A stretch of DNA of 64,000 bases from Tenuifilum thalassicum. GTDB lineage: Bacteria > Bacteroidota > Bacteroidia > Bacteroidales > Tenuifilaceae. Below, piece after piece: positions 26,225 through 28,522 of this stretch. The translations under genes and the position numbers were made by a program. The notes beneath the pieces are model-generated. The model was given only the letters and a program-made list of their open reading frames with translations, did not search any database and had not been told where the DNA came from. The stretch is taken from NCBI RefSeq assembly GCF_013265555.1, contig NZ_CP041345.1, forward strand, positions 1,348,581-1,412,580, in the 5' to 3' direction. Position 1 is the stretch's first letter; every line of letters begins with the position of its first letter.

Positions 26225-27862
26225 TTATTCGGGAAGTATTTGTTCTTTAGGGAGTTTTGATGGTTTAAAAATTTCAATAATACCTTTAATCCCAATAGTA
26301 AGAACTAGATTAAAAAAGTACGCTAGATATGCAAAAAGCAGTGCTGCACCTGCTATGGCTGCTAAAGCCATGAAAATATCGAATTCGCCGTTATAGTAGA
26401 TTGTTCTGCGGAGCATTCCCTTTAAGCCTGCCATTCCCATGAACGCTCCCATTCCTATTCCTCCAAGTAGGTGTAGCCAGAAGTGCCATGATGTTAGTTT
26501 TACGCTAAAGATATTCAATCCATTAGTAAGAACTGGTAGTAACTTATAAACTACGGCGTAAAGTGTCATAGTAAGACCAATAAGAACAGCAACGTGAACA
26601 TGTGGTCCAACAATCCATTGAGTGTTGTGAAGGATTCTGTTCATGCCCATATCGGCTTGAATGATACCGGCTGCAACAGCAAGTGCAAAACCGAGCAATC
26701 CGCCGAGGAAGAATTTGAGTTCAGGCGTCCATTTCAATGGACGGGCATTCCAAAGGGTTACAAGACTTATAAATAGCGCTAAGCCTTGTGTAATTAATTC
26801 GAAAGCTGTAACAAATTGGCCTGAAACAAGCTTTAACATTAATGGCTGAGCTTGATCGGAAAGCAGATGGTGCGACCATACCGTCCATGATACAACCAAC
26901 TCAAGGAGTAGTAGGGCTCTTGCTACATTTTCCATGTATACATTCTTTACACCAGTTATGAGCATGGCCAACAAGTACCATGTACCTGCCACAAAGATTA
27001 AAACCAAACCATCAGCTATAAGGTCAAGCCCCCACCAGAACATGTTTTTGTACAAAAGTGCATCGATCCACGAGTTTTGAAGGTTATATCCTAAAATATG
27101 ACCAACTAGATAAACTAAGATAAGAACGCCAGTAAATGTAATTATACCTGCATTTAAGAATACATCAACAGAACCTCTTGCTATTGCTGCTACTGGTAGA
27201 GGTACCTTGTGAGATTTTCTATTCTCTTTTTTACAGAACAGATTTGCTAGCCCGCTAACACCTAGAGCTGATGCTAATAATGCTCCACCAGGCTGCTTTT
27301 CCCATCCTTTAGGTGTATAGGCAATGGTTTTGAAAACAACAACTACAAAGATGATTGAAGCAACCATTACAAGTGCAATACCCAGAATGAAGAAAGTGCC
27401 TCCCCATGGGCCAAACTGATTAAAGTCGGCAGGGAGTGGCCAGTACAGTGTGTAGAGAGGACCATAGTGTGAAAGAAATCCAGCAAACCAGAATAGGAAA
27501 ACACCAATTGTTATTAGCCAGAACGACCAGCTAGCAGCTTTAAAACCCCATAATGGTTTTTTCATAAGGTAGGGTAGGGCAAAATAGAATGCTCCAAATA
27601 CGAGTGTATAGGTTGCGCCAAATATTCCAACCAATGGATGTGCAGTAAGTATGGCAAAGTATTGATGTTCGGGAATCAACTCTGTTAATGAGTTGGGCGA
27701 TGCAAGAATTAGTCGCATTATCATACCTTCAATTACGGCAAAGCCATAATACAGTAATGATACTACCGCAAACCTTAGTGTTAACTTCTGTAATGGGGTA
27801 AGTCCCGAAAGACGTCCGTTTACCTCATTACCATTAATCAGTGTATTTATAAACTTTATCAT
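26225..27862 (-). CDS. Heme-copper oxidoreductase subunit I with Asp at the first CuB position; probable nitric oxide reductase
   Basis: This 545-residue protein has about 13-14 membrane helices. Recognisable ligands are His75 (ILTAHPLVG, low-spin heme), the HH pair His331-His332 in VWSHHLLSD, and the heme pair His421/His423 in GPHVHVAV. The helix VI segment that should carry the first CuB histidine and the cross-linked Tyr (H-P-x-V-Y) instead reads FWWGLDLIADG, with Asp280 and Asp284. This aligns with the NorB pattern H-L-W-V-E-G with His replaced by Asp. Loss of His and Tyr is incompatible with a standard oxygen reductase and points to a NO-reductase-type family with a carboxylate ligand. 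It is co-transcribed with subunit II, 14 bp apart. Confidence 0.85.
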   Translation of the reverse strand: MIKFINTLINGNEVNGRLSGLTPLQKLTLRFAVVSLLYYGFAVIEGMIMRLILASPNSLTELIPEHQYFAILTAHPLVGIFGATYTLVFGAFYFALPYLMKKPLWGFKAASWSFWLITIGVFLFWFAGFLSHYGPLYTLYWPLPADFNQFGPWGGTFFILGIALVMVASIIFVVVVFKTIAYTPKGWEKQPGGALLASALGVSGLANLFCKKENRKSHKVPLPVAAIARGSVDVFLNAGIITFTGVLILVYLVGHILGYNLQNSWIDALLYKNMFWWGLDLIADGLVLIFVAGTWYLLAMLITGVKNVYMENVARALLLLELVVSWTVWSHHLLSDQAQPLMLKLVSGQFVTAFELITQGLALFISLVTLWNARPLKWTPELKFFLGGLLGFALAVAAGIIQADMGMNRILHNTQWIVGPHVHVAVLIGLTMTLYAVVYKLLPVLTNGLNIFSVKLTSWHFWLHLLGGIGMGAFMGMAGLKGMLRRTIYYNGEFDIFMALAAIAGAALLFAYLAYFFNLVLTIGIKGIIEIFKPSKLPKEQILPE

Positions 27863-27876
27863 AGTTCAAAGTTTTT

Positions 27877-28452
27877 TTATTCAACAGTTATAAAGTTTGG
27901 TATAAGCATTCGAGTGCTTTTAGGCCCTGCATATTCTGTTGAACGCAGCGTGAAGGTCCCTTTCTCTGTAAACTTCCAAACAATCTTGTTGTGGTAAAGA
28001 GGTAAAACCTGCATTTGAAGAACCATCGTGTTGTTGGGGCGGAATAACCCAAACCCATAGGTTAGGTCTTTGGAGTAAACATCAAATAGTATCGTTTCGC
28101 CTTCTTGTACTTTTAATGGCTCGTTGATAGGAAGTTCTTGTCGAACAGAGTCGGTTAAAAGGTAGAACTTAAAGCTATCAACCTCCATCTTTATTTCCCG
28201 GTCTGGGGTTATTTTTGAGGCATCCATCTCTAGTTTAACCCAAGGAATGGTGTGCATTGTTGTGAGATGGAGCGATACACCAATAATGATAAGTAGAATG
28301 GTAAAAGAGTAAAACAGGACTGGTTTTACTACTGGCTTTTGTGTGGGCTTAGTTATTCGATAAGCAAACCACACAAAAAGGATAATTGCCGCCAAGCTAT
28401 AAATGGTGTAGGCGATAATTAATCCTGTTGCAACTACATCAGAGTTTACCAT
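27877..28452 (-). CDS. Cupredoxin-like subunit II without CuA ligands
   Basis: This 191-residue protein has two N-terminal membrane helices (about residues 6-30 and 44-63) and a periplasmic cupredoxin domain. The layout of oxidase subunit II is kept (TYGFGLFRPNNTMVLQMQVL ... FTLRSTEYAGP), but the CuA ligands are gone. The first His is Tyr132, the C-x-E-x-C loop reads STEYA (Ser171, Ala175), and the second His region is KST; only Met182 remains. Electron entry must therefore use another route. It is first in the operon, below a TTGAT/ATCAA palindrome. Confidence 0.82.
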   Translation of the reverse strand: MVNSDVVATGLIIAYTIYSLAAIILFVWFAYRITKPTQKPVVKPVLFYSFTILLIIIGVSLHLTTMHTIPWVKLEMDASKITPDREIKMEVDSFKFYLLTDSVRQELPINEPLKVQEGETILFDVYSKDLTYGFGLFRPNNTMVLQMQVLPLYHNKIVWKFTEKGTFTLRSTEYAGPKSTRMLIPNFITVE

Positions 28453-28508: not shown

Positions 28509-28522
28509 TTGATATTAATCAA
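28509..28522. promoter_or_regulatory. FNR/CRP-family operator (TTGAT-n4-ATCAA)
   Basis: The sequence TTGATATTAATCAA is a perfect match to the FNR/DNR consensus TTGATnnnnATCAA. Its centre lies 63 bases from the subunit II ATG, so activation from a -41.5 position would give a leader of about 22 bases. The same site lies about 56 bases upstream of the likely xerD transcription start. This suggests control by low oxygen or NO. Confidence 0.7.

Follow-up and report, generated by a model that had tools for sequence, protein, structure and literature searches.

Among the NO reductases (NORs) of the heme-copper oxidoreductase (HCO) superfamily, cNOR and qNOR carry an H-x3-E motif in helix VI, and gNOR is said to carry an Asp among its metal-B ligands. 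The primary papers on gNOR are reportedly those of Hemp and Gennis in 2008 and of Murali in 2024.

According to PMC3084760, oxygen reductases have six heme- or metal-binding His residues and a cross-linked Tyr, located in helix VI or in helix VII, and the lack of that Tyr is the mark that divides NORs from oxygen reductases; sequences missing one or more of the six His residues were discarded before its HCO classifier was built. Table A4 of PMC8756737 gives a single active-site residue for each family, namely E for cNOR and qNOR, Gln for eNOR, and D for gNOR, to which it also assigns a cupredoxin second subunit, while the status of the metal-B His is not given in that table. PMC8906906 describes gNOR as norGH, a quinone-oxidizing and non-electrogenic enzyme, contrary to the prediction in PMC6349771 that gNOR conserves energy. 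As outlined in PMC11388526, gNOR was proposed from phylogenomics as a B-family-related enzyme, nNOR is a further proposed family, and cNOR, qNOR, bNOR, and eNOR are the families characterized biochemically. The occurrence of gNOR in "Candidatus Methylomirabilis" is described in PMC6094997, and HMMs for GNOR and NNOR are mentioned in PMC11707229.

Here, we examine a gene pair from Tenuifilum thalassicum, located in a 64,000-nucleotide stretch of DNA that we call the window. It probably encodes an NO reductase with two subunits that is of the gNOR (norGH) kind and, most likely, takes its electrons from quinol; gNOR itself is compared through published descriptions.

Active site of subunit I

Two intact open reading frames (ORFs) lie on the minus strand of the window, 14 bp apart and in the order subunit II to subunit I, with a divergent XerC/D-like gene on one side and one resembling pyruvate kinase on the other (both named by eye). 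The features of the pair are as follows.

26225..27862, minus strand: HCO subunit I, norH-like, 545 amino acids (ORF; PF00115; conservation in 96 rows; fold of aa3/bo3 subunit I)
27877..28452, minus strand: cupredoxin subunit II without CuA ligands, norG-like, 191 amino acids (ORF; TIGR02866; conservation in 94 rows; fold of oxidase subunit II)
27638..27640, minus strand: codon of His75, low-spin heme ligand by alignment and conservation
26954..27043, minus strand: helix VI, residues 274 to 303, with no His (AlphaFold helix; register test; row counts)
27023..27025, minus strand: codon of Asp280, at the metal-B His position (register test; invariant in 96/96 rows)
27011..27013, minus strand: codon of Asp284, at the Tyr/Gln +4 position (register test; invariant in 96/96 rows)
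26867..26872, minus strand: codons of His331 and His332, metal-B ligands by alignment and conservation
26594..26602, minus strand: codons of His421 and His423, heme ligands by alignment and conservation

Subunit I matches the Pfam COX1 profile (PF00115) with an E value of 3.3e-52, and its best NCBIfam match is CtaD, at 94.9 bits versus a cut-off of 670.75. For subunit II, TIGR02866 (CoxB) gave an E value of 2.2e-8, far below the model cut-off. A profile search of the 3.2-Mb genome returned one PF00115 protein, subunit I itself, and no second HCO.

Five of the six usual HCO His residues are present in subunit I, and the helix VI His is certainly absent. H75, D280, D284, H331, H332, H421, and H423 are invariant in 96 of 96 full-length family rows, which represent 86 distinct sequences, some genomes having been reached twice; the rows left out were L001 and L002 (duplicates of the window gene), L019 to L021 (fragments), and L026 (outside the motif filter). 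In every one of these rows, His is missing from 6 residues before to 23 residues after D280, and Tyr is missing from the helix VI +4 place and from the helix VII stretch, with none from 20 residues ahead of the HH pair's first His to 3 residues past it. The preliminary description of this locus, made from the window alone, had listed His75, His421, His423, and the HH pair at 331 and 332 as kept, Asp280 and Asp284 as replacing the expected helix VI pattern, and the cross-link Tyr as missing; each of these readings holds across the family. It had also named a His and a Tyr regained by realigning helix VI as the outcome that would speak against it. Neither reappeared, and no hidden helix VI His was recovered by hhalign, MAFFT, an ungapped register test, or the 96-row count. 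A frame or sequence error as the source of the odd residues is ruled out by the intact ORFs and by identical residues in relatives, and a loss confined to one genome is ruled out by the agreement of all family rows.

The register of helix VI was examined without gaps over the 16 positions upstream of the site. The optimum was shift 0 against A-type, B-type, and eNOR-type rows, with mean BLOSUM62 scores of 1.21, 1.18, and 0.82, versus next-best values of −0.05, −0.08, and 0.44, respectively; this fit places D280 on the helix VI metal-B His and D284 on the +4 Tyr (A and B) or Gln (eNOR). One additional residue follows the site, as the downstream optimum against eNOR rows is shift −1 (1.29), and the HH pair comes at a spacing of 50 from the site in 90 rows and of 51 in 6, versus 49 in A, B, and eNOR rows. 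In whole-length alignments, hhalign paired the His with D280 against A-type rows, with D284 against B-type rows, and with L281 against eNOR rows; against C-type rows, it paired D280 with the Asn following the His. MAFFT paired the His with L279, and the register of helix VI thus depends on the alignment. H75, H331, H332, H421, and H423 pair in hhalign with the remaining five His residues of A, B, and eNOR rows. On this footing, we infer, with support, that D280 would stand in for the metal-B His.

Where oxygen reductases of the A, B, and C types have six His residues and a cross-linked Tyr, the enzyme has five, with Tyr at neither place. Where cNOR and qNOR have three metal-B His residues and a Glu at +4 of helix VI, it has D-x3-D and no helix VI His; it shares with them a carboxylate by metal B and, presumably, NO reduction but has a cupredoxin in place of a cytochrome c or a fused quinol domain. 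The active-site Gln of eNOR is replaced by Asp at +4 in 96/96 rows. The eNOR-type (H-x3-Q) proteins of other Bacteroidota (L174 to L185, labeled by motif) share HHLLxD after helix VII and the ungapped upstream match, but they keep the helix VI His, have Gln at +4, and form a separate clade. These proteins fall into two eNOR-like groups with H-x3-Q, L174 to L180 and L181 to L185, one with GHGSQQ and the other with GHPAQQ, GHMSQQ, or GHHSQQ. The D that gNOR carries where oxygen reductases have Y is matched by D284 in the ungapped register, with whole-length alignments placing the indel elsewhere.

The overall fold would suit an enzyme that reduces or scavenges oxygen at an aberrant site. The AlphaFold model of subunit I (mean pLDDT of 78.9, with values below 50 at residues 281 to 283, 330 to 335, and 409 to 417, among others) resembles subunit I of aa3 and bo3 enzymes, with TM scores by query of 0.71 to 0.76 among the 50 matches listed. 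Yet the cross-link Tyr is gone from both known places in all rows, the metal-B His is replaced, and a CydA is available in the genome for O2, which makes this explanation very unlikely.

Subunit II and electron entry

With C-x3-C-x3-H-x2-M as the CuA ligand pattern and alignments of subunit II as the second basis of assignment, the CuA positions were scored in 94 rows (85 distinct sequences). Tyr occupies position 132 in 93 rows (with 1 gap), Ser occupies position 171 in 93, position 175 is Ser, Ala, or Gly in 87, 6, and 1, and position 179 is Gly or Ser in 88 and 6; the kept residues are E173 and M182, in 93 rows each. The preliminary description, which saw the CuA ligands as replaced (Tyr132, Ser171, and Ala175) with Met182 left, had these residues right, and the second CuA His (position 179) is lost as well. 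The conservation across 94 rows rules out recovered CuA ligands.

Subunit II of the E. coli bo3 quinol oxidase likewise lacks CuA. The AlphaFold model of subunit II (mean pLDDT of 88.4) resembles bo3 or CuA-type subunit II, so that both subunits share the bo3 fold and subunit II, as in bo3, is CuA-free; the pair differs in having no HPxVY. The quinol-site residues of CyoB, which we take to be R71, D75, H98, and Q101, were compared through a CyoB-type row (L145, above the TIGR02843 cut-off): D75 aligns with E45 of subunit I, H98 with Q67, R71 with F41, and Q101 with A70. E45, invariant in the family, is the only like residue among them, and the quinol site as a whole is not retained. A quinol donor is nevertheless likely, a view that draws on the loss of CuA and on the literature and not on a conserved bo3-type site.

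Two further interpretations bear on these losses. A degenerate, inactive HCO could have lost both its metal-B His and CuA, but five His residues and both Asp residues are invariant in 96/96 rows, the frames are intact, and the genes are paired, so inactivity is scarcely credible. Altered active-site ligands also occur in putative NO dismutases, and the pair might be an NO dismutase or convert NO in some other way without forming N2O; the dismutases, however, are single-chain qNOR relatives, and here the cupredoxin subunit is separate, which renders this proposal highly improbable.

An HCO subunit I accompanied by a cupredoxin-type subunit II, as here, is the arrangement given for gNOR in PMC8756737, and, beside the quinone-oxidizing enzyme without CuA described in PMC8906906, the present one has lost the CuA ligands and matches the CyoB quinol-site residues in part. 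The likeness to gNOR/norGH (two subunits, cupredoxin second subunit, active-site D, and no CuA) is drawn from published descriptions. The hosts named in those descriptions, Sulfurimonas, Sulfurovum, Persephonella, and "Ca. Methylomirabilis", differ from the Bacteroidota that carry the gene here.

Phylogenetic placement and spread

In an unrooted 51-row tree, the family is split from A-, B-, C-, and eNOR-type rows with support of 100/100 (89.5/48 is the node label after rerooting), and its stem measures 1.46 substitutions per site. The reference rows were labeled by motif and NCBIfam scores and comprised no cNOR, qNOR, sNOR, gNOR, or nNOR rows; C-type fusions were trimmed at 520 amino acids. 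A split uniting the family and C against A, B, and eNOR received 87.6/96. In AU tests on a quick tree, joining the family to B plus eNOR (p-AU of 0.598), to A (0.664), or to eNOR alone (0.158) was not rejected. The family is a distinct clade by these data, with more than one deep position among HCOs compatible with the AU tests, and the B-family link reported for gNOR is neither shown nor rejected (p-AU of 0.598 for B plus eNOR). The preliminary description had proposed an alignment and a tree as a check; the clade did come out apart from eNOR-type and A, B, and C rows, and joins to them were still accepted by the AU tests.

The long stem and full support of this clade would also suit an NO reductase from a different minor family, nNOR, or from an unnamed sister family, with much the same chemistry. 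nNOR is itself a proposed family (PMC11388526), and gNOR is compared here through descriptions. The Asp in place of the Tyr and the predicted quinone oxidation by an enzyme devoid of CuA nevertheless agree with what the gNOR papers describe, and we regard this assignment as unlikely. It is unlikely, too, that the family is a deep HCO lineage separate from published gNOR, in which the helix VI His and the Tyr of the superfamily would both be replaced by carboxylates to give a high-spin heme with a 2-His/2-Asp non-heme iron, in a patchily spread NO reductase of anaerobic Bacteroidota. The published gNOR/norGH family fits what was found, and no new family is needed.

A scan of genome contigs gave 325 stretches confirmed by tblastn, of which the best 80 were used. 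A copy with 96% identity is present in G006, of the same genus; its place coincides with that of G443, from which L023 comes. The gene occurs in 7 of 39 near relatives, not counting the window genome itself, and in 11 of 394 species across the phylum at an E value of 1e-20, two of these in pieces or as a fragment. A tblastn search of plasmids gave no match, and the viral contigs held no relative. Five loci with other titles, L022, L043, L085, L095, and L096 (Bacillota, Acidobacteriota, Neomarinimicrobiota, Anaerolineae, and Spirochaetes, respectively), have copies 67 to 96% identical to the window protein. These odd titles may be wrong labels or may reflect transfer, and that of L022, the 96% copy, is probably a labeling error. 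Among 149 genomes from the phylum of G440, which contains locus L096, the only match was in G440, and we therefore claim no spread beyond Bacteroidota. For Melioribacter roseus, the available portion of PMC5492636 names three oxygen reductases and mentions no such enzyme.

Gene context and predicted chemistry

Neighboring genes were counted in 81 records (the window and 80 loci); the core ORF was found in 79 of these, L026 and L043 being without it under the filter, and a subunit II ORF was in its cluster in 77. An Rrf2-family gene lies directly upstream on the same strand in 40 of the 71 loci with at least 700 bases upstream, and the window locus has no Rrf2-type regulator. By family, this neighbor would be an Fe-S-type redox or NO regulator, with NO sensing putative. 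All five Rrf2 proteins scanned pass the PF02082 and TIGR00738 cut-offs, fall below every equivalog cut-off, and mostly score better with SUF-regulator, RirA, or IscR models than with NsrR. An NsrR-like Cys spacing was rejected, the spacing being C-x6-C-x5-C in 43/43 proteins; since it was not upheld, our confidence in the gNOR-kind reading is set at a level that is good and stops short of high.

The window locus may instead be under the control of an FNR-type regulator, as suggested by a sequence match.

28509..28522, no strand assigned: putative FNR-type palindrome TTGATTAATATCAA, starting 70 bases before subunit II

A similar FNR-type box, TTGATAAATATCAA, lies 137 bases before a ferredoxin-like gene; hcp comes next, and nrfH-like and nrfA genes stand further along. 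The pattern TTGATNNNNATCAA has 13 sites in the genome, versus 6 for the reversed control; by eye, further sites stand before a Crp/Fnr-type gene and before an nqrA-like gene, and five are inside genes. The FNR-type box shows no clear family-wide enrichment: among the 36 loci that lack Rrf2, only the window has an exact box, and among the 41 that have it, 2 do, with 0.3 expected in each case.

Profile searches of the genome found one CydA, one Hcp, and one NrfA, and the clade II NosZ model TIGR04246 gave no match. The cluster at 1268110 to 1276898 of the genome (L191:3611-12399) contains ferredoxin-like, hcp, cupin, PepSY-like, nrfH-like, and nrfA genes and two cytochrome c assembly-like genes, all named by eye except Hcp and NrfA. 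This gene context is compatible with NO handling and does not prove it.

Other genes recur beside the pair. A 155-amino-acid membrane protein is encoded directly upstream in L077 (L077:4861-5325) and likewise in L075, L091, and L093; the L077 protein matches COX1 weakly (E value of 1.1e-6, below the cut-off) and may act as an accessory protein that binds heme. A DUF6448 protein (PF20046; E value of 1.9e-55 in L100:3208-3951) is near the pair in 8 loci, and Crp/Fnr-type regulators are near it in 8 loci, some without Rrf2 (e.g., L085:419-1216 and L024:4491-5267).

The absence of a helix VI His, a D-x3-D in the register of H-x3-Y/Q, the missing cross-link Tyr, and the loss of CuA together favor an NO reductase of the gNOR kind. 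In the mechanism that we propose, electrons from quinol would bypass the lost CuA and enter subunit I at its low-spin heme (H75 and H421), from which they would pass to an active site that combines a high-spin heme (H423) with a second metal. H331, H332, and the D280 carboxylate would hold this metal, and D284 would serve as another ligand or as a proton donor; two His residues plus a carboxylate suggest non-heme iron, not copper. Two NO molecules would there be reduced to N2O. The preliminary description had envisaged an NO-reductase-type enzyme with a carboxylate metal ligand and an unusual electron input; this remains the best fit in view of the D-x3-D in 96/96 rows, the lost CuA, and the compatible context, with reaction, metal, donor, and formal membership of gNOR still matters of prediction. 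The likely role would be NO disposal in an organism equipped with NrfA and Hcp, controlled by an FNR-type regulator here and by an Rrf2-type regulator in many relatives.

Judged from its sequence features, this NO-reductase-type enzyme is conserved and looks functional, has a D-x3-D site, lacks CuA, and is most likely a gNOR from Bacteroidota. The curated models tried missed this highly conserved set (the best 80 of 325 stretches). The gNOR kind is published, as a proposal from phylogenomics, and its chemistry is predicted; the enzyme described here would make the greenhouse gas N2O. Its D-x3-D site offers a natural test of whether a carboxylate can replace the metal-B His and favor iron.
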